Positions 15,921-60,100 of a DNA stretch of 64,000 nt are shown in pieces. The notes below the pieces were generated by a model. That model was not told the origin of the DNA. It searched no databases and saw only the letters and a list, made by a program, of their open reading frames with translations. Made by a program: the position numbers and the translations under genes. The DNA is taken from the NCBI GenBank assembly GCA_008508345.1, contig QNGE01003686.1:1-64000 (forward strand), written 5' to 3'. Position 1 is the first letter of the stretch. Every line of letters starts with the position of its first letter. The DNA comes from Paragonimus westermani. Lineage: Eukaryota > Platyhelminthes > Trematoda > Plagiorchiida > Troglotrematidae.

Positions 15921-16544
15921 GTGAACAGCAGTCACGCAATCATGAAGACTACAATGTTGGATTCGAGTCAAGATGTTACAAGTCACAAGGAACCGGTCAT
16001 CGATCGCTTGACACCTGTTGATAAGTCGACTCCGAGTGAACCTGGAGAATAGCTTTCGGGTATGTTACGCAACAAAAATCGAAGTTTCTTCCGGTTCGCG
16101 GGGGCGGTAGCAATGAACAACTGAAAGCCACTCCTTTGCATGCAGAAAGACTTATGCGTCAGCGCCAGATTGCCCTGGTAACTGATGAGCATGGATGTAT
16201 GCGTGTGCGTTTCTGTCTGTGGGTGTTGATTTTGTTGTTTAGGTTCACAATGTCCACTGGACATTGCTATATAAACTCGCAGACTGCGGTATGTACCCGA
16301 TGAAATGCAGCGAAATACATTGTGCAGACAGATGTTCCTGCCTTCTCTGTTCAGAACAAAATATCGCCCACGAATTTAATGATTTCTGTTGATTCAGCTT
16401 GAAGAAAAGTCCTAGTCGAGGGGCCATCGACTGTGGCTGACAATACAGTTACTGTGTCCTCTTCGGGCTAATAAGCAACCTGGGCGCAACTTACCAGCAA
16501 ATTTGGCTGAGTGCTTACAAATGATGATACCATCTTGCCCCTTG

Positions 16545-16770
16545 TGAAGCGCAGTTTTGAACACGGTTGCCTCATGTAAAGTGTGACCAGGGCTCTAGTC
16601 CCGGACATGGCAAAGATATGTACTACTGACGCCCTCCAACAGGAGTGAAACTCGAGTTTCATGCCTCTTTTCGGAAAAGGGCTTACTGGAAAGTCTACGG
16701 GATTGCAATGAATGCAACCGATTGAGTCATGTTCAACTTACATAAAACCAAAATCCCCTACTACTCACCA
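16545..16770 (+). mobile_element. tRNA-derived SINE with hammerhead-like core (copy at 16.5 kb)
   Basis: The tRNA-like head (GCGCAGTTTTGAACACGGTT, then a degenerate B box CTCTAGTCCC) is followed by TACTACTGACGCCCTCCAAC-AGGAGTGAAACTCGAGTTTC (hammerhead-type core, 16620-16660). The shared tail GACTGGAAAGTCTATGGGAATGC, mutated here, comes next, and then TAAAACCAAAATCCCCTACT. Layout and core recall the SM-alpha retroposons of schistosomes. Sequence upstream (16400-16540, AAGTCCTAGTCG...) is shared with the 29.4-kb copy and may belong to the unit. Confidence 0.75.
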
Positions 16771-18761
16771 GAAATCCGGATATAACAAATAACTATTCAA
16801 GTAAATGCTACCCAGTCATAAGTGGAACTTGCTGTATTTTGCAACATCTGTACATGATAATTGTATAAACTATTGCTTTCAGTAAGTCTCATTCAACGTT
16901 TACAGTTACACAAACACATGTTGGGTTGTATAAAACACCCGAAAAAGATCACTTAGACTGTTACAAGCTTGAGACGATGAGAGGGAAGATAGTTACATTG
17001 CTGGGTGTAAAAACGGTCTAGAATCTGACCATCAAACGGTGAATCAGTGTCACATCGGAACCTCCACAGCAGGTCATTTCACCAGACTTGTGTGATCCGT
17101 AGGTGCGCGCAAAAATACTCCTGCAAGCGTCCTACCTTTTATGTCCATTTATCCAAGACTTACTCGATATTCGGGCAAGCACGAACTACGCGATAATCAA
17201 AGGTAGACTTAATGAAGAGAATGCTTACAAATTCCCACGCATCCCTTTCGATGTACCACTCCTACAAAACTGCTATAATCTCCGTTGTCTAGAACTTCTT
17301 ATGGGCTCTTCGTCTCATTCAGAGTTTTCTATATACTTCACCCACTTCACAGATAACTGCAAACGTCTGCAGTGCAAAACTGAGGACCACTATTCGCAAA
17401 TTTGTGAGGTGAATTAGCTGCATAGATTGAGTAAGCATATGCTGCAGTAGTGCTTGTTAAAACGGTGGCTGTGAGAGAAGGAAATAAGGCGTTATGCAGG
17501 GCATTTTGAACAACACATAACCTACAAAAGTTCACTGGGCGATTTCTATCACAGATTTTCTCTTTAGCGTAAGCTGCATATTGCCATTTCACTTGTTGTG
17601 TGTTATGTGGCTGAATTCTTACAAAACGTCGTCCTTCAGGAAACAAAGTTCAGCAAATATACCGTCAAGAAGAGGAAAACTTCAATCTCAAGTGGTTAAC
17701 AAAAATTTAAAGGACCGAAAGATGATTTTGATCTTCACCGCTGTTATGTGTTAGCAACTGACGACAACATACAAACTGGTATTACCATCTTGCAAAACCG
17801 GTTTTCTGATTTCACTCTTCAAAGAGATTATTTGTTCTTCAGTATTCACCATCTGGCGACTAAGAAGACAATTTCCGTCACATTAGTTACTAAGCGAGAA
17901 GAATTAAGCGGAGGTGTCTTTCATAGGTAGTAAATATTTTTGACCCAAAATCTCGTCGATTACAGAGAGGATGTGGCTCATGTACTTCTGGCAGAAATCG
18001 CTGCACTCAAAGACCTCACAGCGTATCATTCGTTCTGGCATTGTCGTGGAAATACTTTGGACACTCTAGTCCTGAATGCCTAATCCCAAATCTGAAAGAG
18101 GCATGTTGAGTGACAATTAGTATTAATCACATGATGATCTCATCGGGTAAACATTTAGGCTGCGTGCCGGCGGAGATAGCCAATGGTTTATAGAACTGAC
18201 ATTTTAGTGCAGAGTGAGCAAACATCGAGGGAAAATATCTCCCCACATTCAACATTCAATCATTCATTGAGGTTGACGGGCAGAGCAGTCTTCTAACCAG
18301 TGGTTGGCTATATCTCTTCGTTTGGCTTCTAGAGGCCCTAATAACTGTATTGTCAATGAATGCTATGCAGAGGTGTTCAAAACAAGAATCCGTAACAGCG
18401 TCGACACTTCTGTGTGAACCTTCTGTAGACCGGAGGTATCGATCACTGACATCGCGCGTCCTGTCCTTGACCTCACGTTTGAAGTCGAGTAAGATGGACC
18501 AAACATTCTTCCCAAAGGTAACCTTGAATCGTTATAAGCGTGACTCATTTCAGAGAGGTGAATACAGGGATGACAGCTGCGCTTATCCACTCTTTGACTG
18601 CGTCTAAGCTAAGTAAGGGGGCTTGACACGAAAGTATATACCGATGCTAAGATCGATAGTTAATCGGCTTTCTTATAGCAGAATCTTGCAGATAATGCCT
18701 ATCTTGGATCTCACTGGAGTCGACTTTCGAACTTTCCACCAGCCTTGTCACTAACACAAAT

Positions 18762-21191: not shown

Positions 21192-24100
21192 CTGCATAAA
21201 AAATGCAATTTGCGGGAGTATGCACCATATCTCTACTGGACAACATGTTAGACTTGCATGACACCACGGATGTAATGGCGTAACTAAGTAAATGAGATGT
21301 AAACAAAGTAGAATGCGACAAAAGAAGCAACAGGCTAGAGCCGGAGCCGAGAAAATTTGTCGAATTTTAAAAGAAGAGTAAATGTTATTAGTGTTCGCGC
21401 TTCTGATAATCAAAATCCGTCACTACCCTTGGAAGATTGAAGGAAGTCGGCAGCGTATATTTCTGCAAATGATTGGCTTTGAGGTCGTCAGTTATACATA
21501 GCACAACCGCCACCAAATCCCTTTCCCTGGTGTCAGGGCATCATGAAAGTTGCCTATAATCAATTGCAGGTGTTGATTCTGGCCAGAATCAATGGAAATT
21601 ACTTTCAGATCACTACAGGTGAAATTGAGAGTGAATTGGTAAGGAGTCCACCGGGAAGCTCGAGCCATCAAGCCTCCATACCAGGCCCAGCAACTCCACC
21701 GTTCGGCTACCAATCCACGATCAGTGGCCTGCACAATGTCAATCTCAACTACTGTTGTACCTATACTCCAGTGATCAAGCTATCGTACTGTGGGTCCTTT
21801 ATATATATATATATCCACATGTAGTGATTACATTAAATACTGACCGAACATTTCTCACACTGTTACACGTAACACTCGGAATTGTTACTAAGGGCTCCAG
21901 TTGGAAATATCTCCTTTTTGGTTGTTTTTTACAGCCTCATTGAGTTGCTTACGCCGCCACACTATTGGCTGATACTTGCTGGCGATTGAATCCCGTGCTC
22001 AGAGTTCACTTGGTTGTAAGTTGTACAATTTACTAACCATTACTTTTTCATGTACATAACCATTTTTGACCGAATAAATCCTCAATACTCTGTCTTGTTC
22101 TGTCAGGAATCAAGAGTTTTACAGCCGCTCCGATAGATAGCGTATAGCCGTGAGTCTTGACTGCCTACAGAACGGGTAGCCACTTACAGATTAAACAACA
22201 TTAGAGGAAGAAGTATGACTAGAGGGCACCGGAAGAAACTTGGTCGTTTGACCGGCACAGTGAAATCGCAAAACAACCGTACGTACTGTAAACCCTCGGT
22301 GTACCGTCGAGTGTAACTGAATAAGGCCAAGTGGTATTTACAAACAGTGACAGGTGACCGTCAGTTCCGCACACTGTTTGCAAGAGCCGCCAGACTAGCA
22401 TGACTTAGTCACTTTCTGTCATATGAGCAGCACATTGTATCTTGGTGTCACCTGAACGCACAACGAATAAACTCGTTAGCTGCGACAACCCCGTAAGCTT
22501 AAATGCCTGTTGTCGGTGTTTAGGTGTGATATCTTACCCAAGGTCTCACGAAATGGGCAAATAGTCTATATATTAATATGTAGTAGGGGATTTTGGTTCC
22601 CATACAAAATGATCATCACCACAACTGATCGCAATTGTCGCATCCCACAGACTTTCTAGTCGGCCCCTTTCGAAAAGAAGCGTTAGACTCGGGTTTTATT
22701 CCTGTTAGAGCTCATCAATAGTGCTTATCCTTGCCGCGGCCTGGACTAGAACCCCAGCCATGCTTTCACGAAGCAATCGTGTTGACCACTGCGCTATAGG
22801 CCTCACATTAAGTGTAGCCGGAATTCCAGCCCCGGTGGTGCCGAAGACAAACACTACTGATGAGCTCCAACAAGAGTGAAATTCAAGTTTAATGTTTCTT
22901 ATCGAAGAAGGCCGACTGGAAAATCTATGGGAATGTGACAGCTGCGATCAAGTTATATTAATCCTACATGTGCATCTCTTCGTCCCCTCACATGACCGGT
23001 AGCGACAAGGTGACGCACCCGATAGACTTGACAGTTCGTTGGTGGCAAGCTGAAAGAAAACAGCACATTTAGTTGCGCTTAGAGTGGATTTGATTACCTT
23101 ATAGCACATGTGTACGATGTTTAGTCTGTTAAGCGCATAAACGAAAAACCCACGCTGAGATCAAACTTTGTACCCCATAGTAGTCTGTTTTTGCGCGAGA
23201 GCTAGGGCGTGAAAAATAACCCAATCGAGCACAGAATATGGCCACGTAATGAATGATGAATGGCAACTAAGTACTGATGGAAAGGCACTTAGAATACACA
23301 AGACAAATTGTGTAAATTACCGAAATATTCCACTCGTAATTTTGTATATCATTATTCTCATACAGTCTGATGCCCAGCGAGGAACCAATAGAGCGTCAAC
23401 TTTTTTAAATAGACTACACACATCGATTCTGTTAGAAAGAGGTTGAGTGCAGTTATATGAACACTTGTGGAAACAGCACCGTATGACGTCTGGAAACTGT
23501 TGTTGCCTAACTGATTGGCTTACGGATAAACCTTCTCAGCTCTGAAGTGTGTCACTTTTATATGACGCGCTTGCATCCGCGCGACGGTGCCATAACAAAT
23601 TCAATTTGCAGGAACTCATCCAAATTGATCTCCTCTCTTTACAATAATCGGTCTGTAAGAGACAGAAGCATGTAGCTCGCTTGTACTTGTTCCCATCTGC
23701 GTAGTAAGTCTCATGACCATATCTGGTTGTACTGCTTGGGGAAGGCCTGAAATGGACTTGACACAACCATTTCGTGACTGGGGTGAGTGTTAAAAGCACG
23801 AGAGAGAAATAAAGTTGTTCGATACACAACAGTTCTCAGTTGAAGGAATGAAGTAACTTTACAGCATTCCACATCCATCTCAACCACTTACTATTCATTG
23901 GATGACAGACTATAAAGTGGAACCTTTATACGAGATACCCAGATGGATCTCTTCTGCGTACCGGGCATGCACTGCCTCCTTCAACAATGTTCTGTTGTGG
24001 ATTCTAAAGACACTTTGCAAATTATTCGAACCTAACTCTTAAGGACTATACTATCTTAATGAGTATACCATTCAGGTTTATGGAACAGTGGTGCTTTGCT

Positions 24101-27100: not shown

Positions 27101-30100
27101 GTCCTCGTGCGGCAGACTACCACCTGCTGCTGAGGTGTTTTGGCAGCGCCCAAGAGAAAGTTAAAACGCCTTTGCTCACAATGTCACAAGAGCAGGGAGG
27201 GTCTTCGTGTGAAACATTGTGTGACCCAATTAGAGCAAGGGTTTCGTTATGGCACTTTTAACAAAGTGAACCCATGCCAGTGTGTGTTGCGAGAATCGCG
27301 TTTTCAGTGTCCTTATCTGACGGCTTATGTACTGAATTCCGCACGTACAGGTAAATTCGTAAATGATGGTTGATTTGACGAGCGTCGAGTTGGGGCATAC
27401 AACTTATGGGTGTAGTACAATGAACTTGGTCGGTGCATATGTGCTATTCAATGCTGATCGAAGTATTTGTCTTATGAAGAATGGTTTGTCATCACGTTTG
27501 AAGGATGAGGGATACACTTCTCGGCTTCACTGATACCGATAGGATGGGTGATCGGACGCGGATTGATGCCAGATGTTTATCGGTAAAACGCACAAGACAA
27601 CCAATTTGAGCTATAATCTGCGAGATACGGTTGAGCATTTGAGGTAGACTACTACGTCACTAACTCTGTGACATAATGCTCGAATGAATGGTGACTTTTA
27701 TACGTAACTAGTACAAAACTTCACAAATGCAATGTGATCAGCCGATGTGTTTTTCATCGTCAAACTCAATGGCCTGGACTTCTAACAATGTCAACTGATT
27801 ATCCAAATTCATTTCAGTAGCGAACTGAATAATGAGATGAGAGTTGTTGAAATATGTGCAAGCAGAATCAGTCTTTCAAATTACATATGTATGGTCCGGC
27901 AGCTGATAGTTTGCGTTTTCCTCACAGGTGACCATGAAATTATCAGTCGGCTTAGAAACAATGAGACTACTAACCACAAACACATTATCCAACTAGTATC
28001 AGAATTGTCTAGTGAATAAAACCTGTACATTGCCACAACCTATCTACTGTTCTCGAGTATTAAAACCTGTTAAATATTCACATATATCCATAGAAGAGAG
28101 TCACGATTGTCAAATTACTGAAGTAGGAGACTGAACGGATGTTTGTTTAGTGTTCGTTAGTCATTCTTATATATTCCCGTCTTCAGTCTGATGAAACAGT
28201 TGCCTGTCTTAAATGGTATGCATTAAGCTTGCAGTTTACATTGATATTGTGTCCCACTGTAGTCAGAAGTTACACTTTGGAATTCAAAAATTTCCACCAT
28301 CACAGCTTTTCTTCATTTCTTCAAGCTGCGCTAGTATCACACGGGATTTACCGATTTATCCAGACTGGCAACAGCTTGAATTTTGATATGGGATTTAAAT
28401 GGTTTCAACGACTTCTACTTACCTGGTTGTTAGCGGTTGAACGTCAGGGCCAACAGATTTTTTCTGGACTAAAACACAGTAAGATAGATGATTAATTATT
28501 ATTATTATGCATTCTTTGCGTTAATCAGCAGAATGCACGTGACCAAACTCGTGAATGATGAAGTCTTTCAGGAACATTTGTTGTGACACAGCTCAAGGTA
28601 AACAGCAATTTATCAGCCGTCCTGAAGCATTTGTCAATAAGTGACGTTGCCGCATTCTTCAAAAAATCTAACAGAAAGCAAATGGCGGATTCGCAACAAA
28701 ATGCAGAGGACGGTCACTCAAAATACTGGATCGCGCAACCTTCTCTGAACCTGGGCAAGACCACGTCATAATAGTCTGATCACCCTTGGATTTGCGACCA
28801 GATAACTGGCTGGTTGACGTTCGATCAGCAAGCGTGGAATAATGAAATACGCGGTAGGCCACAGTCACTTTCCTGCTAACCGGATGTTCCATGTGACCCA
28901 GGTCAAACAGAACGACTTCATTTTAGCCGTTTCGTTAAATAACAGTGTAGTAGTTAACAGGGATAGAGGTAAAGTAAGGTCCACTTGATCCAAAGAGTGG
29001 TATGATGTACAGATCAGCTGACACGCTTTGTGCTAGAAACCTTAGTTTCAAAACACACCACAAAGTTGGTTTGAAACCAAACGGGAAAACGTATGTTCGT
29101 CACCGTTTTGCAGTCTACCTTAGTTCATAGTTCACTGGGCAACATGGAATGGGATGGTTAATGCATCAGCAGAATGAACAATGCGTCAGAGACCAGCCCC
29201 ATCGAGAACGGCACTACGGTTTAGCGACCCTTTCTGAAGGGGACTGACTGAAAAGTCCATAGGAATGCAACAGCCCTAAGCAGTTGTCAGTGACGTTCAA
29301 TTTGTACAGAACAAGAAAACCCACGTTACTCACTAACAATCAAAATATCACCTATGTTAGTGAGTTCCGTGATTTTAACCAGAAAAGAAGTCCTAGTCGT
29401 GGGGACATCAGTTAGCATGAACAGAACAGTTGAAATGTCTTTCGAGGCGATCGGACAGCCTGTGACAGTTCAGTCCTGCCTAATGTGAGGCCACTGATGC
29501 CGCGGTCAGCCGGGTTGCCTCACTAAAACGTGCCCGGAATTCTAGCCCGGACCGTTCTTAGGATACGTACCATTGACGAGCTCTGGTGAGAGCGAAACTC
29601 GAATGGGGCTGACTGGAAAGTTTATGGGAGTGCGAAAGTTACGATCAGTTGTGGGCGTCTTTCGAGTCATACCAGTCAACATTTCCGAATACTTACCGAT
29701 GGTCAGACAAACATTATTTGGGTCAATCAGATCAACTGCATCAACGACTTACTTGAGATCAGGCGTCGTCTACGAATAAGGATTAAGAAGATCAGCAGTG
29801 CGATAAACGCGATCAGAAACATGCACACAATGATGAACCATGTCCCACTCGCACCAGCCAAACTGCCCGGACCGGGACCACCGAGTGTGTGCACGAGGCG
29901 TTCGGCACTTGCTGTGGACAACTGCGCTCCATTCGTGGCAACCATACGCACCTCGTAAGATGTATCTATGGGGGAGAATATTAGAGATAAATCGACAACA
30001 AATGCTCCGGGCTTACTCACCTGAGGTCAGACCCTCCACAATGATGGTACGGTTGCTGAATGTGCTAGCCGAATCAATCCAAAGCACCACACCGGGCTGA

Positions 30101-36100: not shown

Positions 36101-39100
36101 GGAACAAAACATCTCGTAACTTTGTCTAATCTTTCACTTACGATGAGGAACTTTTTTTGGACCAGGTGAACTAGCAACAAACTTTGGAGTATTTAAGGCG
36201 TCAGTAGTGAGTAACATGATTAGCTCAGGTAATTTGTTATACACAGGCAGGTAACATGTTGCTAGTCGCATTTTACTCATATCGATTGTGTTATTGATCT
36301 ATAGTCCAATTGAGCATAATACTCAGCATACACTGTCCAGTTAAACAGAGCAATGACGTACAGAGTGTTCGTAGGGAAATTGATTGAGTGATGAGTGAAC
36401 GGCATTCAACGAGAGCATTCACAGGCGATCATTGCCACGAAGCAGGTGCACTCACGTGATCGTGCAGGGTATTGAGCGTGAGGACCGTGTCGGTTTTGTG
36501 TCACATTTTAGTCGGTAAAACAATGCCAGCTGACCCTGCGCGGTAGTTTTATCCGCTAGTGCTCACGCGCATATGTGATGTATGCCAGCTGAGCGCCAGA
36601 AACGGTCTTGTTCATTTTTGCCCAAGGGCGCAGAACAAGACACGTGGAAGGCCCGAACGAAATGAAGTCAATATAGCATATCAAATAGGAGAAATAAAAG
36701 CATCAAATAAATGTGTAAGAGATGAAAAGAGGAAATGTGGCTTTGATCCGTTGAAAAATCAGTCTATTCGTCAGTCAATATAAGCCAACTAGATCAATCC
36801 ACGACCAGGTACCATATGTTAGATAGGACGGAACCGTCGATTCTATTTACGACCTGGTGAAGTATGATGGTTTCAATGATTTCCACGATCATGTGGTCTT
36901 ATGGAACTCTGAACACTCATTCAATCACTTTAATACTGACAAGTTCAGTTGCACGGCCTCTGTCTGAGGCATGATCGATACTGGCGAAATCACTGGTCAT
37001 GACCTGGTATACAAGTTAATTTGGGGGTGATTCCGTAGTACGTCCTTCGATTTTCTTTCGTTTTATCCTCATTCCTATCGCAGTCCGTCCAACATGTAGT
37101 CACGAATGGCTCTTGCAATATATTTTCTATATGCAGCTGTTAGTTTTCTCACCAGTCGGGAGATCCGTAGATTGCACTATAAAAATTCCTTTCACAAGAT
37201 TTCAGCGTTTCGCATTATTTTAATACAAAATACGGACAACCGGGAGCGTGTTTGAAGCTGATGGAGCAGTGTGAAGAACAAAACAACGATTCAGATGGGA
37301 TGGAGGGCATGTGTTCCAAGCAAGAAGGTAAATGGATCTACTCGTCCTTGACAAGATCCATGAGTCGACTCAAACACAATTACGTACTACCGATCACAGT
37401 CAGTATTTTCATTTGATTAAGGCTAGAAAACCACCAGTATCTTTGGATTCGTACCAAACGACATTACAGTCGTCTCGCCATTGACGTGGAGGTGCAGGAT
37501 CACTTCTCCCCAGTCACGCAAACAGTACATACTTGATAAAAGCCAACTAAATCGGAGAGAGAAAGTTGATGACGATTTCATATCAACACTGTTCTATCTT
37601 TGAGTGTATTCAGAATGGTAAACACTTCAAACAACCAAGACACAGCGAGATAAGGTTAAGGTGGGTGCACCTGAAAGCATCATCCTTATGTACCACAAAA
37701 TATTCTTGGGAATGGCACTCACCCCATTGGACCAGCAAACCGCGTGTTTAATATTCTTAGCCAAATTCGAACAGTCGATGCACCTGGCACACCAACCAGT
37801 GTGTAATTTATAGTTTGCCCTAACGTAAATTTTGGCTGTGGCGGTCCACCCATCAGATTCTCGAAGGGAATTTGTGCCTGGCGTGCTTGTCGGGTCATGG
37901 TGGCTTGGTACGCTTCACCGACCACCGAGGGGGATTGTGCTGCTCTAGGGAACAAACCTGCACCAGGACAGGAAATATTGCCTTTTGGATAGAATCTACA
38001 GACGGAAGATAACGAATGTTTCACTGGGTCGACCGTTATGTTATAACGCTCATAAAATGAGCGCCATTGGTAAGATTGTTGTGGTGGGTACTTCAGATGT
38101 CGTTGGTCTACCGCATACTCGTCGGAATCTATGTCATCTTCGTGTATCGGCTGGTCAGCAAAATGTTGACTACTATACGTCTCATCTGAAACAGAACGGC
38201 GCCGACGACTGTACAAGACGGGAGTAGACGGTATTCGTAGAATAAGATCCTGTTTGAAAGGAAGGGAGAATAAATCGTGCATTTAAAATTTAGTAAATGA
38301 AACAATTATGTTTTTACTAATTAGGCACACGAAAAAAACATACCGATGTTCTCTGTCGTCAAATAACCCACATCCTATGACCAGGATACAGTATAACGTT
38401 GAATTGACTAGGAAAAAGATATATGATATGATTTACGCTCGAGAAAATTTCATTGCACCTCTGCTGATGCATATTACAGACGGCTTAAACGTACAAAATG
38501 CCAAATCACAAAACTCACGAAAAGGCCAAGGTTTAAAACCAGTGGAGATGCAGTGAACCTATGTCACGTCACTCCGTATTATTCACATTTGCAACAGGAA
38601 GTGGTTATTACACATCAATGTATACAGATACTTGTGTTGAATATTTTCAAGTTGAACATCACGCTCATTTGATTGCAGCCTTCGCATTCAGATAGACTTT
38701 CCAGCCAGCCTCTTTCGAAAACAAGCACTACACTCGAGTTTCGCTCTCATTATAGCTCGTCAGTAGTGGATATCCTTGCCACGACTGGGATTTAAACTCC
38801 GGTCACGCTTTCATGAGGCAACCATGTTGACCACTGCGCCATTTACTTCTCGTTAGGCACGACAGAATTATCAAATCTGAACGCTCAACCACTTTCGCTT
38901 GTGAGCAATGATCACTTAAATATTTACTACTTGCAAAACTTCACAGTAGTCAAGAGTGTGAACCTATTACCTTAGTACTAGATGGCGGACCACCCAGCGC
39001 ACGTGGTCGATGGGAAAATATGATGTGCTAGCAACTAATCAGGCTGTCATGCAAAATTAGGAAGTATGTGTAAAATACCTGAAACCGGAACTGTGCTTCA

Positions 39101-45100: not shown

Positions 45101-48100
45101 TCACGGGGTTGTGCGCCGCTTAGGACCAGCGAGTAGTCAAACCAGACTTTCTGTATTCGTGGTGTGATTTCTGGCACAATCAAATTGTCATCTTTATACC
45201 AAGTAATGCGTAGATTGTCCAGTTCCATCGGATCGGTCTCCGCAGTGCACACAAACTTAACCACTTGGTTCTCATATACTTGTGTATCGATCGGGGCCAG
45301 AACAATGCTCGTACGACGACGGACCAACAAGCGTCCTGAAGCTTTACGGCTACCGAATGGATTGGTGGCAGTGCATTCGTACACACCAGAATCAGTAGTA
45401 GCAACAGACTGGGAAAACAAGATTTGGTATCAGAGATAGTGTTAGAAATTCCAACGAACAAACCAAGAGATTTTCCAATGAACAGACGAATAACCTGGTG
45501 AATTTGTCATTTAATTATCGAAAGGCAATGATAGAAAATCGAGGATTCGAAGTTAAGTGTTGAAATTCTGATATGAAATAGAAGATTTTGGATTCCTTAA
45601 CCAAATCAGGTTTAAGGAAGGATAGTCATGAGTGCAGAGCATGGGATTGCCTGGTTAAATAGCAGTACGTCGCATAATCTTTACACCGTCATTCACAGCC
45701 CCTGCTCCGTGTAAACCAGCTCATCAGAAATGTCATTGTGATTGCTTTGCGTAAACTAGTACTCCCACGGGTAAGGTCACACACGTATGTACACCTGAAG
45801 ACACAAACTCAGTTTCAACGTATAACCAATTGCAAAGCAAGATGCGACTCGAAACGTGTCTTTATGTAGCAAGTAAAGCAATAGCAGAACTAGTGCCCAC
45901 AGATAATTCTTACCGAGATAAGGAGATCTCCTGTCGGCAAGCTTTGATAACGACCACCGTTGATTGGTCGACCGTCTTTGGTCCAGGAGATCACGGCCTT
46001 GGGTGCAGAGAAAGTCTGACAAAATAATGTAACCTGATGCCCATCCACTACACGATGATTTGACTGGGGTGGTTTGATGAAATATGGCGGCTCGCGCATG
46101 ACATTCACATAGGCATTCACAAAGTCGTAGCCAAACGCATTGGATGCATTGCATTGTATGACCGCAGTGTCTTTGATAGTCAAATTGTACAGCAACATCA
46201 TCTTTTGGGGAACAAAACGTAATGAAGTGCCGATCAGTCGGTCAGATTGAAACAGTTAACTCAATGAACACGCAATGGTTAGTGATTTGAATAGCACACA
46301 AAATAATGATGGTCCGAAGGAGTGTCGCAGTACACTAGGAGGTAGTGTACTTTGTGTTCAAGCCAAAATAACACCGCCAAAATAAACCACTCAAAAGTAA
46401 TCTTGTGAAACAATGAAAATATGTTCCATATTAACCTATTGGTAAGGGAAGCATTAGGGAGATACATGAACAGCTCCCCAGAAGTCGGAAACTATATATG
46501 AGCGTGATGCAGAAAATGGGTTTTAGAAAGCTGTGCCTATCTGATGAAACGGTGTTGGGGACCATTTTGTGGCTCGATAGAGAGAGAGAGATGACCAACT
46601 CAGAACCAACAAAGTTTACGCTTGATCGTGCACAACTTCTCGCAGGCTCCATAATCACTGTACTATCAGGTATCTAAGAGTGGTAAGTTGTCAGCTGTTC
46701 ATTCCTTTGCACACTAAGCAAAAGTTGCTATCAATAACAGTTTAACTATAGCCTTATTCAAACTAATGGGCGATCTCATAGTTTACAGCGCTCCCGTTCA
46801 CCATGACCTGACCTGGTCTAAATAGACATGTGGAGCGTTACAAATGAAATAAACTATCGATTGGTCACAAGTTGTCCTGAACTCATGAATGTTCAGTCGG
46901 TCCCAAACATATTCCAAACAATGGTAACAGACCCTCCTTGTACTAATATTATTCATTCCATCTCAAATTTAATTGTCCAAATTTCTCCTGGCTATTCGAT
47001 TGGATCCTCGGCAACTTCTATCGATCTAGTCGCGAATTTGCAGCATGTAATCACTGGTCTAGAATTCTTGAGGTTCATATGACAAAACTGAATGTTACAC
47101 TACCATGTCACGGTGTCTAGAAAATCACTGCGTTGACACTAGCAATACGCTGACTTCGCATACCGTTATCCCTGCCCACTTTTGCTGCAGTAATGGGTCC
47201 GAAACAATCATACTACGCCTGTCCATATCTGAACAACACTATTGACCTCAGTCCATTGCAATTACAATTCGGCATGATCAGGAAGCAATGCTACCTAAAG
47301 GAATGATATCATTTGTATTGTTGTATACCGGATTGATATTGCCAGAAGTGGCACATCATAGAGCACCCCGTAAACTGCAATCGATCGGGAAATATTTGGT
47401 ACCTAGCGAGTAAACGAGGTCACTTAACTAGGACAGTGGTTCGGTGTTACAGCCAAGAAAACAGTGCGAGTCAAGTACCAAGGTGCACACACACGAGGCG
47501 CCTCACGACAAATTTTTAACTATGATACTATTCTTAGCTCAGGTTGGGATGTTCGCCGAACTTGGTATTTAGGTTGCAAACGTTTCATCACCAAACGAAG
47601 TGACGCCATCAGTGTGTAAGGATTTCAGCGCTCAAACACTCACGCAGTGATGATGAGAACCCGTTTGGTGATGAAGCACTTGCCATCTAAATGCCAAGCC
47701 CGGTGAACATCCCAACATCTATGATTCTGACAGGCCGTGAACAAGATAGGTTATATTTCATGAAAAGTATGTTCTAACTTAGCTACTGGAAACAATTGCC
47801 CCAGACTCGAGTTTACCTTTTGCTGAAGCTCAGCAGTACTGCGTAGACTTATTGCAACAGATCCTTGTTCTGATGAGACAATCGCTGACCGCGGCAACGC
47901 TGGCTCCACATTAGACAGTAAAATCGTCTCCTCGAAAAACTCAATCACATAAGCTTGTGAATAATGCTCAGTATATCCGAATGCGGAAGCCGCCTTAAAA
48001 TGTGTGCTGCACAATTTATATCAACCAACTTGTTAGAATGATAGGGTAAAAAAAACAGACTTCGACTGTGAACTTCTTGAATAAGCAAAGTATTATTGTT

Positions 48101-51100
48101 AGCTGGACATCTAGACTCTTTTCAGGCTGTCTACGCAACGGAGTCCTGGCAGAACTGTTAAATTTGGTGTTGAATGTCAGTTGATGCTTTCTAATCCAGT
48201 AAAAGTACCGTCCAAGTCAAACAAGGATTTGTCTGAGCGATTTGACTCGCCGTCCTAACTTACGATAAAAACCTCTGACTTGTGCGAATTGGAATCACTC
48301 AGTGCACAACTCAACGAGGATCCACAGTAAGTTTCAGTGCTCAATGACCAGTCACATGTTAGGTAACTTCAATTTTGTGTGGATTGTTTACAGCTTTTTT
48401 TAACTTATAACCACTTATTGATGTATCGGTGAACCCCTGAACAAATATTACTTGCCGAACGTAGAGAAGCGTTGGAAATAAGCCAAAAATTTACACAATG
48501 TATTAAATACGAAGGACGGAAATATATATATACGCGTATTACAGCCGTGAAAATAATAATACAATCACTCAACTGGTTGTTTACTCGACACCAGCAAATT
48601 CCACACGTTAGTCTGCTCATTTTCATAACTATTTAGCAACAGCTAGCACCGATAAAAGGGTCGACTCCGCTCGGCTTCGAAAATTCACTATGTGAAGACA
48701 CGGGAGAGTCATTTGACAAAAGACCATATTGCAGAAAACGTTTTAAAAATTTATGGGTTTTATTGAGCAACAGTTTAAATGTGGAGAACAAGTTTCACTA
48801 TCGTCTATGAATGTGGAACCATCTATGCTCTGCACAACTGCTCTCGTGTAGTTAGTGCCGAAATCGCAATTCTGTTCTTGTCCGCCTTCACCCCATTCGG
48901 AACAGTACGGTTTTAGTACTCTGCTTTCTAAACTATTGTAGGCGTTACACGTACATACCCAGTCAGGGAGCTTAGTTTGGTTCTAGCAACGGAAAATAGC
49001 CCGTTGAGCGTGGTTGGTTAGGGCAATGATGTTGAATGCAGTCATGTCTTCCGCAGTCTGCAGAGCAGTTGAGACGCTAAGCGGGAGTAATAAGATAAGA
49101 TTAAACTAAGCCCTCTCTTAAAAAGGAGTCACGAACACTGACTGTGTACCTTGACAGAGGATAGTTCACGGCCGACAGTTGTTGGCTAATCAAATTTATC
49201 AGCCAAATTCTATCATTTGCGTGTGTTAGTCTTAGAACTGGGTATGAGTTGGCAATCCGCCACTCCTAAGAGCCATTTACTGCCGTCATAAAAGATCTCT
49301 TAATAGGGAACTTCCGCGGCGGTAAGAATTCCAAGGTGGTACTATTCATCACTTGATGTCTGGAGGTCAACAATATTGCATCAATATTAAAGAGTTTAGT
49401 CTTGTTGTTTCAGGCCCTATATATGCAGCAACCAAATCGACTAACGCGCAAGATCGTTATCGAGTGGCCTAGTAAATCTGGAAGAATGAAAGTGATGTAA
49501 TACTTACATTTCCGCGTAGAATTTTACGCACACCATCAACATATGACGATGGGTCTTGTCCGTTTACGGTCCAACGAATCTGTGGGGCAGGAATACCGCT
49601 TGCGTTGCACTTGAAAATCACAGAACCGTTTACCGGTACAGTCACATCCTCCGGCTTTTCTGTGAAAGTAGGTGGTACTGAAATAGACAATCGTAGGCCA
49701 GGAGTAAGAAACAGCTGGGAACGAGAGCGTCTAGCTTATCGCAGCAAGTTAAAGCAATAATCTTTCAAAACCAGACTGACAAATAGTGAGTTTCTCGGAC
49801 GTACCTCACTATCAACACTTTGATAGATTTTGCAATTTACCGCAGAATAAAGAGATACACTATTTGGGCCTTGGCTATATTTTGAGTCCACAATGTAGTA
49901 TTCTTCCCTGGCGAAGTTGAGGAGTTAGTGCCATTAGATCATACACATTTTAATTTGAGACTTCCCTTGTGTCTCAGCACTCGCTCACCGCGATGTCAAT
50001 TTAGGTAGTTACTAGTCTGCAATGCTCTGTAACCAGATAACAAATAGGACCAAGTATGAGTCCGTGGGAGATCGTCGTTGTTGTCCGAAATCTCGTAAAA
50101 ACAAATCAGAATGAGAATTAACAATGTACGCTCACTATTCGCTAATGATCCTTTACACAGGACGCAATGCACCTGGTGTCTCATGATTGGATGTTCGGTA
50201 TCTGGATGTATCAGCTACTTTAACGGTTACTGGATTCAAGGCAATTATTTGCTTATTTGTTGTTATGGAAACATTAGCTAACCTTATTTTGTTTTGTGGT
50301 AGATGTGGGGAAGTGTGTATCATAGAGACGAATCAACAATTAGCATACCGGACTTGACTTGGTTGTTGGAAGCACTAGCGTCCAACGCGCAAATGTTTTT
50401 CATGTAGAGAACAGCTGATTCGGTGTTTCCTAGTGTACGTGTGCTATATTCGTTAAAAGTTTGACCGTGGCTATGTCTAGAAAAGACACCTATCGCTTCA
50501 CTTCTACCTCAGTGGAAGCGATGCTTCTAAGAAAAGGGTGCCTTTTTTAGGTGACATTCTCAATACGAATGTGCCGTTGACACATTTTTGACGTACGAAT
50601 ATAACCTTGCAAGCAAATTGCGATCACTCCCTACTGGCTTTTATGACAACTATGGTTCCCAAGATTAACTCAGTAACACATAAGCTAATGATCTCAAAAA
50701 CGTGGGGCGAAAAGTACAACAAATCAAGCACACAAACGTAGTCCACAGGGTTATTGAAGAAAAAATTGTCACAGCTAGTCGAGTGTCCAGTCAGCAACGG
50801 CTGTAATCGGTAGGCATAAAATGAGACCGTGGCGATTATAGCCAATAAATCTGGGGCTACCTTTTGTTCACGAGCACCGGTGTTGTCCGTCAGGACTTAT
50901 CCAGTTCCAGAAGAATCTTGATTATCACATACCTGGAACAGCAACTTAGCCAGAATTCGTTTCTATTCTAACTAGCAGTCAATTCAGCCACGAAGGCTAA
51001 CTTTAGGAATGCGATTATTTTAGCATGATCAGCAGCAGTTGGTTGGAATGCTCCTTAACAATAGAGTACATCAACGTTTCAGGCGAAAGCGAATTTGTAT

Positions 51101-54100
51101 GAACATTTCTTTTCTACGGACGAATTCCCTTCAAACGACATACTAGCTGAAGTCTAGTTCATATATGCTTGCTTTTAGTAAACAAGCTTTTCTGTTGAGC
51201 ATTAAAGCCATCCCCATTAGTGCGTTAAGGATTCTGTGTTGAAATTTTGAACTCGACAGTAAGAAAGTAAAGGGTTCATCTAACAAAAAGAAACAGTCAC
51301 ATTTAATTTGCGCGTTTTGTGTTGGTCGTTTTGATCGGACAAACGATGTTAATAGTTTCGCCTATTCCGAACGAGACAAGCGATCAAAACTGAGCAGACA
51401 GCATCTGACTCAGCGCATCGTGAATTACTGAACAGCGGGCTTTGCTGGTTTGCTTATTTGATAAGAACTTGACAGTTAGTAAGGATTTCTCTGAATCTCA
51501 CGTCCAGACGATTTTGATAACACGGGTAAACTTTGGGATGTAACGTGGGAGCGAACCGCTTTGTGGGAAAAGTTCCATTATTTCGTTAACGTATAATGGT
51601 TCTCACGTATGCAGATGTATTCGAAAGTAGCCAAAACTGGTACATGGTGACTTCACTAAACGAACTGGATTGCAGGTGGTTGCTTGTGGGTTGCATGCTT
51701 TATGAAGCGCGGCCTTACGTAAGACTTATAAGTCTGGTTATGAGAGACAGATATGGTACACAGAGATAGATATGGTATTAAAAAGGAATTCCGTGGATCA
51801 AAAGAGTATACTTGGGTTTTTACGAGTACACTTCAGGGAAAATTATGTGAAGATTTTGTCTATGACAGTTATTAGTCGACTGTTAGATGGTTGTTGCATA
51901 ATTATCAAGGGGTTTTGCCAAACGCCTGTTAGCATAGATTTGCACAGAAATTTGGATTTTCACGATAGTTTGTTTGCCGAATTATAGACTATCATTCAAC
52001 TTGGAACGCCACCCGCCGAAATAATATGACAAGTTGCAACGCGTTCTGCGTGAGGTCAATGTAATGTTTAGTGAAAGGAACGAACACACGCTTTTCTGTA
52101 ACAAATAACCACGACCCTAGTCTCTTTATATTGATGTATCACAACCATTCATAGATAGTAAAATGAGACTCCCAAAGACTATCATTCTAGGCGTCACATA
52201 AGTGAACATGCCACAAAGTGGAATAAGAGTTTTACAGAATTCAACTTTCCTCCCCATATTATCCAACAACACACAAGGACGATGAGATCTTTTATTTCTA
52301 CTGCCCATCCGGAGGTTAATCAAGCTAGTCGCAGTCAAGTCATGCGTTTTTAAACTACAGCAACTCTTCTTGTATACTTTCCAACTACAACTTTCGTTTT
52401 TATTGAACACGTTATTTTTATTTCGTCATGGAAAGCTGGCAAGTGTCGATAGGACAGCCAACGAAATGCCCACCCGACTAGTGAGGTATCTGTAAGCTCA
52501 ATTTGCACGTTCACCTTTCGGTGTGAAAGTTGTGCAGCACTGATATGTGAGAGTATCCTGCGATTTAAGCTACACAAAAGACTCAAGTTTACATACGATG
52601 ATCGTGCATAAATTTGTTGAACTTCGTTTTATTTCAACACCACTGCATGGTTGTATGAGGCCGCTTGCTCAGACTATTTCGTTTTATTGCAGCGAATTTT
52701 TGTGTACATGAGCGGTTTTGCTAGGAAGTAATGGTTGTATCTTTCGACAGTTACATACAGATCGGAAGTAGCCTGAATCTGGATCCTTACAAGCGAAGTG
52801 CGAGAGGTTATTGTCTACTAGTGCAAGGAACTGGACTATCAGGCAACCGACCGATGTGTTTCGCGAATCCAGGTGAACGAAAGTGAAATATGAAGGGAGG
52901 AGCTTACAACGATAACAATCGTAAGGAATTTCTTCGATGTCTGTCAGATTGATTGGAAATCAATTTGCAAATCTCAGCAATTATTTTTATGTGTCACACT
53001 AACCTGGGAAGTATGCTTACTGAGAAATCACTTATTAGAAGAAAATTATTGAGACTAACGTCCTAGTAACCTAAAGCAAAGTAAACTCGATCGAAAACGT
53101 CCGGATCATGGTGAAGATAACAGTCGGAAGTCACGTTAGTAAACAGACTTACTAAGGATGCACTGAACCAAGAGAATTGGAGAATACGGGCCATGGAAAA
53201 ATTGATCACTTTTGGTATTTACAACATCTCACCACATAGCAGTGCTAGCTCTATGCGCCACGTCGAACGTTGTAGTATGCCGGTGATGAAATTTGAAACT
53301 GTGAAGTCACATTCGTGAACAAATAAGTTCTTGGCAAATGAGCGATACGCTATTCAAGACAACCACAAATCAAGGTGTAGCTTCTATTAACTGGAAACTA
53401 TTGCTGATGAGTTGTCTATAAATTCGGCACTAATTAGTTGGGCACTTAGGAAAAAACGGACAAAAATTGAGCATTAACAATGGATGAGTGCAAAACCAAA
53501 AACTGAATATCGTGTTGAGATCGGGCAACTGGCAAGCGATGGTGAAAGTACAAGTATGACGGGGAACCACCCTGTTAGTATCGCATATTTTTAAGTTCCC
53601 TCTGATCCTTGCCCTTCGGAATACCTTGTCCCACCACTGAGAATCTCAGTTCGCTTGAAGGCACCTGTTTCCTACACTAATTCCGCAAGACATAACATTG
53701 TACGTAGATAAATGTCAACACAGCTCTATTGAAGCCGGTAGATACAATGAAACAATGTGTTAACTGTAAGATATCCGCACCAAATTTAGTGCGAATGAAG
53801 TTGAACAGTTTGGGCGTCGTGTTTAACATGTTGTTGATAAACATATTGGGAATAACACAACGTTACGAGCCAGTTGTAATACTCTACCTTTCAACCACCT
53901 CGGGTGGCCTTCTTCAGGAGTGTTGTAATCGAAATCACATTCGATTTCGATTACAACACTCCTGAGGAAGGCCACCCGAGGTGGTTGAAACGTAGAGTAT
54001 TACAACTGGCTCGTAACGTTGTGTTACTCCCAATCTGTTTATCAATGTGTGTGTGGTTTGAAATTCCGCAGTAGTAGGCCATGGCCTACGTCATGAGTTT

Positions 54101-57100
54101 GGGGTGTTACTGAACGAAGTTTCTATTAATTTGCTCCCTAGTAACCTGAATAACTAATAGAAGGCGTCCACACATTTATATAGGAGGTCAATCTAATATT
54201 ATTGATGGCATCCCTTGATAACATTGCTGTCATCCTTCGAACCCCAAATGACGTGGCAAAAACGCATGAGTTCGGCTACGATGCGTAACCAATAAAACAA
54301 AAATATCAGTAAATATGAACAACTTGCGAAATGTAAAGGACGTTTTAGTTGGTGTGTAATTTGTGAGATAGCCACTCAACAACTTAGGTGATAAAGTTCA
54401 TAGTGATTGTAGGTACCGGTGTTTATAAATGATTCCTGAGCGCGTAGCTTTGATGGAAGAGTTAAGCACAATGTCCGGAGCCTACCAACACCCCCGTTTT
54501 GTCCCGATGATGAAAATACACTTGGAGTATCTAGTTGACATCCAATACTACCACAAAACAAGGGAATGAAATGGAATCTCGTTAAGTAGAGTGAAGGAAG
54601 CAATTAAAACTCAATCCGTTGCCATGTTCAGGTCATTCCTGACACACAGTAAAAGCTGTTATATGTGTTGTTTTAGTTAAGTTCATCTTACTCCTATGAA
54701 AATATGACATCGTTATTAATTGTCACGTTATCGTATAAAACAGAGTTCAGCTTTATTGCAAAATCGTATGTGCATGGTTATATTCGTTATGTTCACAGCG
54801 ACGTTGCTCCAGACGCAAGTTGAAGTTTGCCTTTCTGGCTCACACCGATGCGCACTTAACCAGTAACAAATTTTAGGGTTCAGCGGATATGGCGAAAATA
54901 AGCGGTGAGCCACATATAATCTCGCATGATACACTTAACCTGTTTCCCAGGATAGCTCCTTGTAGCGACCGTTGTTGATTCAGACACTAGTTACCCAACA
55001 AACGCAATAAGTGTTTAATCACATTGCTGGAAAAGCAGCTGACAACGTTTCTAGAAAGAGGTGAAAAATACTGGTGAACCTAAACTTGGCGCCATATAGT
55101 TTATGAATACTGTTACATGTCACATCATCTGGACCAGAAAGCACCAAAACAAAAATGAGTAGCGGTGGGTAGAGCAGAAGGAAATACAAAGTTTTAAGTA
55201 ATCACTTCCATTAATTTGAGAATACAAGGGAAGGTCATTCGTTCATGAGTTTTCGCTCTTCGAAATTATAAAAGAAAGGACCTTTTCAGCCCTCATCTGG
55301 TGAATTTGACCAACAACTTGACTGGAAGATACTTCAAGGGTACCAATGCAAAAAGACTACGATGCATGTCCAGGAACTGAGCGAAATGCGGAAATAGGAA
55401 GTGATCGACAGGACAGGAAGTAAACACGATGTAACATATATTTTTGAATACGTTTGGGACTGACTGAAGATTCATAGTCTTAGAACAGTTCGTAAACAAT
55501 CGGTAAGTTGGTTTATTGGTGACGTTTCACGTCTACCCTGCCTCGAATACAGCTAAATTGGTAAGTGGTTTTTCTGATCTGAAAAAGTTTCTGTGTCAGA
55601 AGTGAAGCGTCATCAATAAACCAAAGTGCCGATTGTTTACAGGTTGTTTTAAAATTCTCACGCAACACTGTTAGTAATGAGTAACCAGTGAGCTGACTGT
55701 ATCAGTCAAATTTGGTCACAGTAGAACAGATCTTTTTCTTGAGAGGCACCATAAAATAGGCTTTTTGTACACTCCTGGACAAAAAGGATCAATGTGGTTC
55801 CCGAAACACAGAACAAACATACGTCGATATCTTTGAAGGTATCGGTTGTATGTCTGCGAGTTTCGGGACTGGTACGAAAGTAATTGTGTCCGCCGGTCAA
55901 GCAAGTTCATGAAATAATGAAACTGCTTTTTGTGAGCAAATCGCAATCCTTAAGCAGTCAACTGAACCGATAGGATTAGTTGTTTGAAAAGTTGTGAGGA
56001 GCCGGGTCACGAGTTCACTTTTGATCTTGTTATGATTGGGTAAAGCTATTAACTCCCCAAGTAACTTGTACTGCTTGATCAGCCAAAGTAACCAAAGCAA
56101 ACTGCCTCAATGAAAACGGATAAGGAAAGAGACGTGGTTCGGTTAGATGAGAAGAACTGGAAGAATGTACGGATTATCTCCCAGAGATATCAACTTTATG
56201 TCATCAGCTCAACCTTTTGTCAACGAGTTAACAGTGAATTGGCAAACCAGAAGGCGAAAACGCAGTACATACATATCAGACAATCCTCTTGTGTCTTTCT
56301 AACACCAATTATCTCGTGTATCTTTATAACTATTACGCTTCACATGAATCAAAAAATTGGCTTATTCAGGTTATTGAAAGGGAGTGCAAACTGATGCTGT
56401 TTAGCATAAACTATTTTTGAGATAATTGAAATTCCAGAGAAAAGCTTGGACTTCGTTTGAGTTACCTTGAACAAGAACGGTGTATTGTGAGTTAACAGTT
56501 GTGAGAGTCTGTTCATTTGAGCCTTGACAACGATATTCTCCTGCAGCCTCCAGTGTGACCGGATTGATTTCGAGCATCGTTCCCAAATTTTTAACCACTA
56601 CATTCGGTAGCTGGATGGAAATGACATTATAAAATTCTAAATGAGCTTGTATAAAGGAAAATTCAAACCAACAGTTTCATCTGACTGCTCAAGGATAAAA
56701 GGTTCGGTGGGGATGAAGTGCGCTTGAAAGAATGACAAAGAATACGAAAATAGGTGTCCAATAATGTTCAATTTTCCAGATAAGTAGGGTAATCATACAC
56801 ATTGTGCATCTCGCAAAATGAAATTAACCGGTGGTAGCTTCACTGGATGTAAAAAGACTCACAAAATCTCTTATCATTGTCAGAATATCAATGGTTAACA
56901 CCGACGCCTACTTGCAACGCGACCAGAATAAAAGCAAAAACGAGCTCCAGTTTAAAGACCAAAGGAAAGCAATGAGGCTTCATACATACAGGTCTTATTT
57001 CTAAACTCGAACAGTTAGCTGTACTATCCGTCCCACCTTGAAAACAGAAACAGTGAGTGGCAGGCGGAGGTGAGATGACGCCTGCAGTATAGCTTCCTTG

Positions 57101-60100
57101 CAACTTACCTTGTTCCACTTCATTTATTGCCCCCCCCTTTACGGACAGCTCGGTCAAACCCGACTAGCCTCCACAAGTTGCACAGGTTACTAGACGTAGA
57201 CTGTGTGAGACAAAAAAGTCCCAGTATGGAAAGTGAACCGAACCTGTTATGGTCGAGTTACAGGTAACCGTTTTCGATTCTGTGCACTAGGTCACCATTT
57301 TGTCACCACGAACCTCACGCTAGTCGCATCTGTATGTAAAACGAGCAGAGTGGGGAGCAGCGGCAGTCATCTTTGGCCCGTGGCTCAACCACCTTAAGGT
57401 ATGCATCGATGCAGACTAAATGAATGAATCCGTTTTTCCCACATTACCAGGTCTCAACAATCTAGTGCCATCAGTGGATATTCGTGTGTTATTGGTGTCA
57501 ATCTACACAGCATTGAAGAAAGTCTGCATCCTCAAAGTTGAGCAAACACGTTTCGCAACCGTGTGGTACCATCGGTGTCACAACTGTACTATATGTTCAA
57601 GCAACGTCTACCCGTCATTACAGATCACTTGGATTTGCCAAGACTACCCTAGTCTTGTAGATACAGTATTTGGTTTCATACCCTATACACCTACTTCTAC
57701 TGAGTCGGCCGCTAAACACCTGAGCTGATTAACAACCTTCATAGACTTACCGTTTATCAAAAGATCCAGGAAGCTACTGCTTAGTTTAAGAAGCAATCAG
57801 CATTCTTAAGATGCAAGGCACATTTTAACATGTTTGGCAAGAAGAACGTTGATGTAAAACTATGCATTATTGTCGGCACAGCCAGGATTGGTTGACCTTT
57901 CACCAGGCATGAAATCTATGCAGATATACTGTGAGTGCCGTAAAGGTTCCTCGTTACTCGGGTCAAACCCATCTTGACGTGCTTCGCTCTTGGTTTGTAA
58001 TTTGTCGAACGGATCTTGGTACGTTTTAACTCGAACTGAGGTGTATGAAAAGAGGGTCGTTCGTGTGATCAGATCAAGTCAAGAAACATGGAATTCAAAG
58101 TGACATTATCGTGATACAATCAGTAATATTAAGAGAAAAATGGTTTGAAACGCCTGATTAATCAACATGACCTAGAGTTGATCAGAGCTTCCACATTCTT
58201 ATAGGTCTTCTAGCCAGGTCTTTTTCGAATGAAACAGTTGGCTCAAGATTTGCTCATCTAAAGGCTCGTCAGTAGCACGCACCCTTGCCAGGGCCGAGCT
58301 GTGAACTCCGGCCACGCTTTCACAAAGCAACCGTGTTAATCACTATGTCATTGCAGATTGCAAACAACCACGAGTGATGTTCAACTTATGACACTTGTTG
58401 AGCTAAAAATAGAACTGTAAAACCTTGGAAGTAATGATACACAAAAATATAAATATAAAGGTTGTGACACTCTTAGTCGTTAAAAGCATTCCAGCAGGAT
58501 AAACTCAAGAATACTCAAAATTCAATCTAGGTAAGGGGTCACTATAAAATTGTAGTGCTAAAGAGTCGAACGTAACTAATGAACGAGAAAAAAATTTATT
58601 GTGGGTGAGTGATAAGTACAGGGCTGCTTCAAATACATCATGTTTTATAATTTTCAGTTCATTCTGATGTAACCGACCGACGGACTCAGAATGTTCACAT
58701 CCACTGAACACAGCTTCAGCCGCTCATCGCTGAATTGCTGTAATGACTCCATGAAAATTCCTTCAAATTCACACAGCCGAAACAACTTTTGCTCCTATCT
58801 GTGCTCATCAAGTAAAGACAAAAGTTTAGATGTTATTCGGGCATTTCTTGTTACGAATCGAAGAAGTCATCCGAAACAGGGGCGATAAAATTAACTGCCA
58901 TATTATTCCAATGTTGCATTACTTACACCAATTGGTTCTTTGCCATCTTTGAACCAAGTGTACTGAGGCTCCGGAAATCCACTGTAGATACACTTCAGAC
59001 GTAGCACATCACCGACCACGGTGACTTCTGTTCTCGGTGTTCTGTATAATGTTGTCAACTTGTAGTTTGTCTTTAGTCAAACAAAAAGGGGAACAAACCA
59101 CTAACGTAAAAATGATAGGGATGAAAACTAAACCAGCTGAGTTCTCATAGTACAGTACTGAAGAATCACGTTTCTAAGGTTTATATGAGGTTAGCAAAGA
59201 TATTTCAAATGTTGGTCAGCAACCCTGTATGCGGCTTAAAAATGTATCATCTTTGAAACTTCCTATATTGACCACCAACGGTTTCACCGAGCAGCCAGGA
59301 GTCTGTTCACTGTCGGTTGAGTTCACATTCGAGTATGTTTAAGCACGCAAAAAGCGCTAGGCATCCGTGTTAATTTTCTTAATATGCCTTATGGTGGATG
59401 GAACGAAACTCTAAGACCGGTGGTGCTGTTTATGAAGTGAAACCTTTAACAAACCATTATTGTTATATCAATCGAAGCTTCACATACGAGTTTCTGTGCC
59501 GGCGATACAATCGGTCACTATCCTTTCTTCTTTGACCGTAATCTGCACTTGAGGACCGTTTCAAATGTGAGGTTTTCGTCGAACATCTACAACCCAATCT
59601 AGAATTTATTGGTTAGCAACGGTCAGTAACAAATCAACCACAACATGCGTCTAACGCGATAAAAACACCTTTTGCATAAGAAAATCTGTATAGTATAGGG
59701 AGGCAAAAATGCAACACATCACTTCTTCTCTGTGCACTTACTTGTTGACCATAAACTTGCAGCCTGTACGATGGACCGTTCTTCTGATGCCTCAAAACCT
59801 CGTTGTTCGCGACACAAGTATACAGTGTGTTATGATCTTCTTGAATCACAGCAGCGATGTAGAGGTAGCCTTAAATTGTAAGGGCAAATACAGGATAAAA
59901 GCAAGTTGATGGCTTCGATGCAAACATAAGTACGAACAAGATTACGCACTGTACTGTAAGGTGGTGGGCACATACAGTTCTATAAGTTCCTAGTGAACAA
60001 ATCAAAGCAAATTCCAAGAAATGCTGCTCCACGCCGTACTTAACCAGAAATACAGACATCAAAACAAATGTTTCCGTTAACGTATTTTCGCATTATAATA

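Follow-up and report, generated by a model that had tools for sequence, protein, structure and literature searches.

We report that a 64,000-nucleotide stretch of the Paragonimus westermani genome (contig QNGE01003686.1, positions 1 to 64,000; referred to as the window) contains a neuroglian gene on the minus strand whose introns harbour several palindromes. The gene was recognised through 19 stretches with 83-100% identity (above 90% for 16 of them) to a P. westermani protein from which we took the UniRef label neuroglian, in agreement with the neural adhesion gene (Nrg) proposed in the initial annotation. In a palindrome scan four loci scored well above the maximum of 26 seen in one shuffled window: P1 (53834-54045; score 180), which is the strongest palindrome of the window, an inverted pair of SINE-like copies at 22626-22950 (87), P2 (47543-47716; 65) and P4 (55492-55640; 56). 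P1 and P4 lie in the same neuroglian intron (49685-56466) and P2 in the next one (46202-49498), and the mutual similarity of the arms of P1, P2 and P4 is no greater than that of shuffled sequences.

P1 is composed of a left arm of 103 nt (53834-53936, minus strand), a 6-nt centre (53937-53942) and a right arm of 103 nt (53943-54045, plus strand) with four mismatches between the arms, which is close to the approximately 102-nt arms and about four mismatches around a 6-nt centre described previously. The left arm is joined to a tail of approximately 69 nt (53765-53833, minus strand), which matches the one-sided tail of the genomic copies and forms the 3' end of the element; the left arm is hence the tail-joined arm in the sense orientation of the element, while the right arm is a short inverted arm without a tail and the centre is a junction that varies among copies. 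A candidate target-site duplication, CAATGTGT, is present on the tail side (53753-53760) and on the far side (54043-54050, taking in the last 3 nt of the arm); it is only 8 bp long, adjoins a TG repeat and is uncertain. Transcribed as a whole, P1 is predicted to fold into a long hairpin (-180.8 kcal/mol vs -13.5 for the isolated right-arm unit), as had been anticipated. Searching the letters of the P1 arm and core as words in the literature matched one paper, which was unrelated.

The window also carries other mobile sequences. Six SINE-like copies with an internal type I hammerhead are present at 16502-16771, 22561-22834, 22801-23008, 29422-29701, 38601-38899 and 58143-58395; they have a tRNA-like head as judged by eye (ARAGORN predicted no tRNA) and are similar in kind to schistosome Sm-alpha. 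Two of these copies stand head to head at 22626-22950, with the hammerhead of the right copy facing outward. A 330-bp unit is repeated 1.9 times at 12558-13199. The remnant of a Penelope-like element (PLE) reverse transcriptase at 3249-4754 (minus strand) is 43-50% identical to proteins named from flatworms, and its C-terminus carries what we take to be a GIY-YIG-like motif; further PLE remnants are found at about 15.4, 18.2 and 27.5 kb. The initial statement that no reverse transcriptase sequence is near thus needs to be amended, in that this remnant lies within the window approximately 49 kb from P1. Homology between the P1 arm and the flanks of the window's own PLE remnants was no greater than for shuffles. 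At 3064-3137 (minus strand), approximately 110 nt downstream of the PLE reading frame, CTGAGGA and GAAAC boxes occur 62 nt apart, with no convincing stem II.

In both P1 arms, read outward from the centre, CTGANGA is followed by an extra A, a stem II of 7 bp with a loop of 3 nt, and GAAA; a 4-bp stem I is retained in both. The P1 core equals the standard hammerhead core plus one nucleotide, with CUGANGA, stem II, GAAA and stem I present in type I order. The right-arm unit (53958-53998, plus strand; identified with the strict descriptor given below and from the sequence) comprises stem I (53958-53961/53995-53998), CTGAGGA (53962-53968), the extra A (53969), stem II (53970-53976/53980-53986), GAAA (53987-53990) and CGTA (53991-53994), and cleavage is predicted after 53994. 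The left-arm unit (53885-53917, minus strand; strict descriptor) reads CTGAAGA ... GAAAGGTA and has GGTA after GAAA, so that it lacks the ACGU present in the right arm. On the neuroglian strand the sense hammerhead is this left-arm unit, in which GAAAG replaces GAAAC, and the better right-arm unit is consequently antisense to the gene.

For the hammerhead searches we used a strict descriptor (core, stem II, helix III position and a stem I of at least 3 bp) and a loose descriptor (core and stem II), both composed once the P1 geometry had been seen. With the strict descriptor the two highest scores in the window were those of the right (28) and left (25) arms of P1, followed by the right arm of P4 with 15, which equals the best of 40 dinucleotide shuffles; the P4 unit alone is for this reason unconvincing. 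This unit (55579-55611, plus strand) has two core changes and shares with those of both P1 arms the 4-bp stem I, one extra nucleotide, the 7-bp stem II and the 3-nt loop. With the loose descriptor 13 matches in the window scored at least 8 vs 1.92 expected from 12 shuffles, and five of the 13 fall inside the four palindromes, which span approximately 1.3% of the window. The units of P1 (both arms), P2 (left arm; 47582-47612, minus strand) and P4 (right arm) all face outward from the centre. The strict scores of the two P1 arms sustain the claim that each carries CUGANGA, a 7-bp stem II and GAAA in hammerhead order; the additional claim of a stem I and ACGU in the right arm also holds, and is extended here by the stem I of the left arm.

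No hammerhead was detected in P1 when the window and regions of it were searched against Rfam, and none in the right arm alone at E-values up to 10; the left arm was searched only inside larger stretches. The initial annotation had suggested an Rfam scan and regarded the lack of a covariance-model hit above threshold as refuting a ribozyme, and read literally the outcome goes against it. The Rfam miss may, however, be due to the typical absence of helix III from PLE hammerheads, since published ones usually lack it (extracts from PMC7761336 and PMC6155905). The SINE-like copies in the window gave Rfam matches below the cut-offs, i.e. Hammerhead_1 with 25.6 bits (cut-off 34; 38725-38769, minus strand) and Hammerhead_HH9 with 24.4 bits (cut-off 52; 22846-22906). 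Our data support the view that the P1 arms bear the layout of a PLE-type minimal hammerhead.

The host genome (823 Mb in 9701 contigs) was searched with P1, and the best 40 of 1732 first-look candidates, i.e. those closest to the query, were scored. All 40, one of which is the P1 locus, have essentially the whole palindrome, and the 39 other copies are 89-95% identical to P1. The unit of this family is approximately 281 bp and consists of the short inverted arm, the sense arm and a one-sided tail: beyond the palindrome, the copies share one flank and diverge in the other. The tail was tested in 38 copies (37 loci and P1), with L009 omitted because its flank is masked and L025 (G000:C2042:4200-6200) set aside as a 181-bp tandem array, a local repeat of part of one palindrome copy. 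The tail, about 69-71 nt long, was recognised in P1 and in 35 of the other 37; the two below the cut-off were L036, with a shortened tail, and L017, in which the P1-family palindrome is followed by what reads as the tail of a second family (see below), implying that arms and tails recombine. Target-site duplications scored at least 9 in 23 of 36 copies and in none of 36 controls with swapped flanks (control maximum 8), and they vary in length, mostly between 10 and 15 bp. Contrary to the earlier suggestion that only a ribozyme palindrome is left here, the palindrome is thus the normal form of a many-copy family having a tail and target-site duplications. Conservation among the family members is not higher in the hammerhead columns than in the outer arm (0.962 vs 0.965). 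No open reading frame runs through the approximately 281-bp element or its tail; the lack of reverse transcriptase and GIY-YIG coding is expected for a non-autonomous derivative, which is not itself a full PLE. With respect to relatives beyond the host, pattern searches gave no match in IMG/VR, a PLE alignment gave none in IMG/VR or GTDB contigs, and plasmids and phages likewise had no match.

P2 is an older member of another many-copy palindrome family. The copy in the window is decayed and its own tail was not recognised, and the best 40 of 796 first-look candidates in the genome were scored, from which 15 copies were cut out as loci. These have a palindrome and a one-sided AC-rich tail, and 14 of the 15 show duplications of 9-15 bp (no swapped control was used for this family). 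The majority sequence of the core has an exact CTGATGA and GAAACGTT, with the GAAAC box exact, and the extra nucleotide before stem II is common to P1, P4 and this second family. The majority sequence contains a 41-codon frame that begins within the core and is open as far as the end of the tail, which resembles the Anolis PLE; we could tie no PLE protein to this frame. One locus, L070, considered as a longer reading frame behind the tail was rejected as its frame soon stops and it reads as another inserted copy. P4, which has unequal inner ends, appears to belong to a small family: among the 95 first-look candidates, the best 40 were scored and were mostly one-arm matches.

In the genome we noted 28681 first-look candidates for PLE reverse transcriptases; 62 were scored and many have open frames of at least 800 codons, and PLEs look abundant and partly recent in this fluke. 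We examined 15 PLE loci and 20 upstream stretches and found no autonomous PLE carrying the P1 arm, the matches there being inserted family copies; the case for mobilisation of the P1 family by PLEs therefore rests on layout. In the 75 nt preceding the PLE N-terminal motif, CTGANGA was present at two of seven loci (background 0.034 per 75 nt), with no good stem II. One PLE copy (L087, reverse complement, 3372-3481) has 36-bp head-to-head repeats directly before the N-terminal coding region, and at L088 and L095 inverted repeats of approximately 60-75 nt lie upstream, with the 3' end of another PLE between them. According to PMC11167929, the protein of the Anolis PLE cleaves and extends both strands, its "tail" being the sequence between its two start sites, and the hammerhead sits at the start of the reading frame; the authors conclude that unprocessed RNA is the dominant template in vitro, and their RNA-seq has no ends at the cleavage site. 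Rotifer PLEs most often have head-to-head inverted repeats with palindromic junctions, for which the authors favour self-priming on an antisense template (extracts from PMC3846280).

The relationship between the two arms was analysed in 37 copies (L009 and L017 omitted) over 94 mirrored pairs (the 12 innermost omitted), giving 3447 cells. Both arms were changed in 43 cells, 40 of them in a complementary manner, and a single arm in 160; when arms were re-paired between copies (500 trials), complementary changes averaged 4.6 with a maximum of 16. Of the mirrored changes 31 are distinct, and 27 of these are private, each being limited to a single copy; one or more mirrored changes occur in 22 of the 37 copies. 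Specifically, L034 has four private mirrored changes and L028 three, both with zero single-arm changes; L012, L023 and L043 also have no single-arm changes, and their mirrored changes are common to other copies. Mirrored and single changes correlate negatively, possibly as a result of selecting query-like copies. For the second family the mirrored-change test was not significant (6 of 6 complementary; null mean 2.7, maximum 7).

While the outer ends of the P1-family copies are fixed their centres vary, with 22 distinct centres among the 25 of 39 copies that have intact anchors. Across the 39 copies the inner ends form 25 combinations, one junction being common to five copies; the longer arm is the left in 17, the right in 17 and neither in five, and the junctions comprise 20 overlaps, 3 blunt joints and 16 fillers. 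One asymmetric centre occurs both ways relative to the tail (five copies vs two), and the short arm ends at a constant point ahead of the tail. In the second family an identical centre is shared by four of the 15 copies. Given that mirrored changes are mostly private and that inner ends vary while outer ends are fixed, the arms of the P1 family probably form anew at insertion, and the changes and centres are most simply accounted for by a single template per insertion and a fresh junction.

We therefore favour, with reasonable though far from full confidence, the interpretation that P1 is one copy of a many-copy, approximately 281-bp non-autonomous retroelement that is moved in trans by PLEs and whose palindrome is remade at each insertion. 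The template would be an RNA that begins approximately 20 nt before the hammerhead core and extends to the tail. A PLE-type enzyme would nick both target strands and prime reverse transcription on each of them, starting at the end of the tail on one strand and at the border between arm and tail on the other, and two cDNAs with slightly different 5' end points would be joined head to head into a new palindrome. A long side with the tail and a short side without it, as found, would be expected from two start sites, one on each strand. Less surely, the hammerhead might first cut some template RNAs; copies made from these would be short, with a longer arm that terminates at the cleavage site.

Other routes to the same structures have to be weighed. 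The whole palindrome could be copied as one RNA, with gene conversion between arms producing the mirrored changes, and cruciform cutting with end joining producing the varied centres. Long perfect palindromes are unstable, arm-to-arm conversion with repair of the centre could give the same changes and centres, some main-family centres recur, and the second family has its four identical centres and a non-significant mirrored excess. The three or four private mirrored changes of L028 and L034 with no single-arm change are difficult to reconcile with this route, as is the asymmetric centre found in both orientations to the tail, although arm inversion could also produce the latter; we regard the route as unlikely, though not negligible. 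We give the same low rating to fold-back self-priming of one cDNA as the origin of the head-to-head form in place of priming on both target strands. A single template would here too explain the mirrored changes, overlaps occur at 20 of 39 junctions and self-priming on an antisense template has been argued for rotifer PLEs (PMC3846280, in extracts); fold-back would not, however, by itself fix the end of the short arm ahead of the tail, and either arm may be the longer (17 vs 17). A MITE-like DNA transposon, with terminal inverted repeats spanning the whole element and an accidental likeness to the hammerhead, would also be short, many-copy and palindromic and would have no Rfam hammerhead. Its duplications should not vary in length as here (mostly 10-15 bp), the tail lies outside the inverted repeat and on one side only, and palindromes with unrelated arms have the same core and outward orientation, which leaves this explanation very improbable. 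The initial annotation had considered arms that prove to be DNA transposon ends as refuting its reading, and the clear, variable duplications together with the one-sided tail instead point to target-primed retrotransposition for the P1 family. Finally, P1 might be a microRNA or hairpin-RNA precursor gene, as sub-threshold matches on both strands to MIR5998 (64.8 bits, cut-off 180) and MIR2934 (56.4 bits, cut-off 100) could indicate; such matches are expected from a long hairpin, the curated cut-off was not attained by any Rfam family in the whole window and many copies similar to this locus exist, and we give this idea hardly any credence.

With respect to cleavage, a short palindrome, L090, is accompanied by the complete tail and by a duplication around AGAAAGAATAAA. 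Using it as query, the best 40 of 693 first-look candidates were scored and 12 other loci matching across the centre were taken, giving 13 short copies with L090. Their longer arm ends at arm position 60 in four, 63 in seven and at 55 and 39 in one each, and the predicted cleavage is just before position 61; hence in 11 of 13, a sample chosen through L090, it ends within 2 nt of the predicted site, while the end of the shorter arm is variable. The end positions are imprecise owing to junction overlaps of as much as 7 nt, the near-palindrome GTATTAC is present at the pile-up, and some short copies share a junction and are thus perhaps not independent. These ends hint that the short copies come from hammerhead-cleaved templates, which we treat as a lead and not as proof. 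As a tentative proposal, which we hold to be possible but the less probable outcome, the minimal hammerhead would cut element RNA at the predicted site in the fluke germ line, and intact and cut RNAs would both serve as templates primed on both target strands. Somewhat better placed, if still short of an even chance, is that the copies retain the core only as an inactive relic, cleavage being abolished by the extra nucleotide before stem II and by the G-U closing pair, and that the pile-up of ends reflects a microhomology hot spot or shared descent. In agreement with a relic, P1, P4 and the second family all have the extra nucleotide, the Rfam match is missing, and the short copies show the overlaps, GTATTAC and shared junctions; the exact core in two families with unrelated arms does not, nor does the fact that the pile-up point is reached by either arm with different partner ends.

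PLE hammerheads, head-to-head repeats and non-autonomous hammerhead elements are already known, and PLE minimal hammerheads were reportedly the subject of a study by Lunse et al. in 2017. The P1 family shares with the pseudo-LTRs of Adineta vaga PLEs the head-to-head arrangement, the palindromic junction, the optional tail of one repeat and short target-site duplications; the extracts of PMC3846280 describe the Adineta vaga repeats as flanking a reading frame or captured sequence or standing solo, whereas in the P1 family the junction and tail are themselves the many-copy unit, with no reading frame. As in the PLE minimal hammerheads (PMC7761336, PMC6155905; extracts), the P1 core has no real helix III and is located at the element start; P1 would differ by the extra nucleotide before stem II, a G-U closing pair and opposed instead of tandem copies. 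Metazoan retrozymes are likewise short hammerhead retroelements that are non-autonomous and proposed to be moved by PLEs, but the extracts of PMC7229834 describe tandem, mostly canonical type I hammerheads and circular RNA, while the P1 family has palindromic single insertions with opposed units. The Sm-alpha-type SINEs of schistosomes are also high-copy hammerhead retroelements of flukes; they are SINE-like, and in the portions of the literature available they are not described as palindromic. In the open-literature listings and extracts searched, with the two key PLE hammerhead papers outside their scope, we found no description of a many-copy family made of a hammerhead palindrome and a tail, nor of the mirrored-change and junction evidence.

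A many-copy family in which outer ends recur, junctions vary and mirrored changes are private provides a natural record of insertion products. Counting in a census of all copies could separate priming on both strands, fold-back and post-insertion repair, and mapping of inner ends could test cleavage in vivo. If the tentative proposal of a hammerhead active in the germ line is true, each head-to-head palindrome would preserve, as a fossil, the joining of two cDNAs primed separately at one insertion, and ribozyme cleavage in vivo would be recorded in the short copies.
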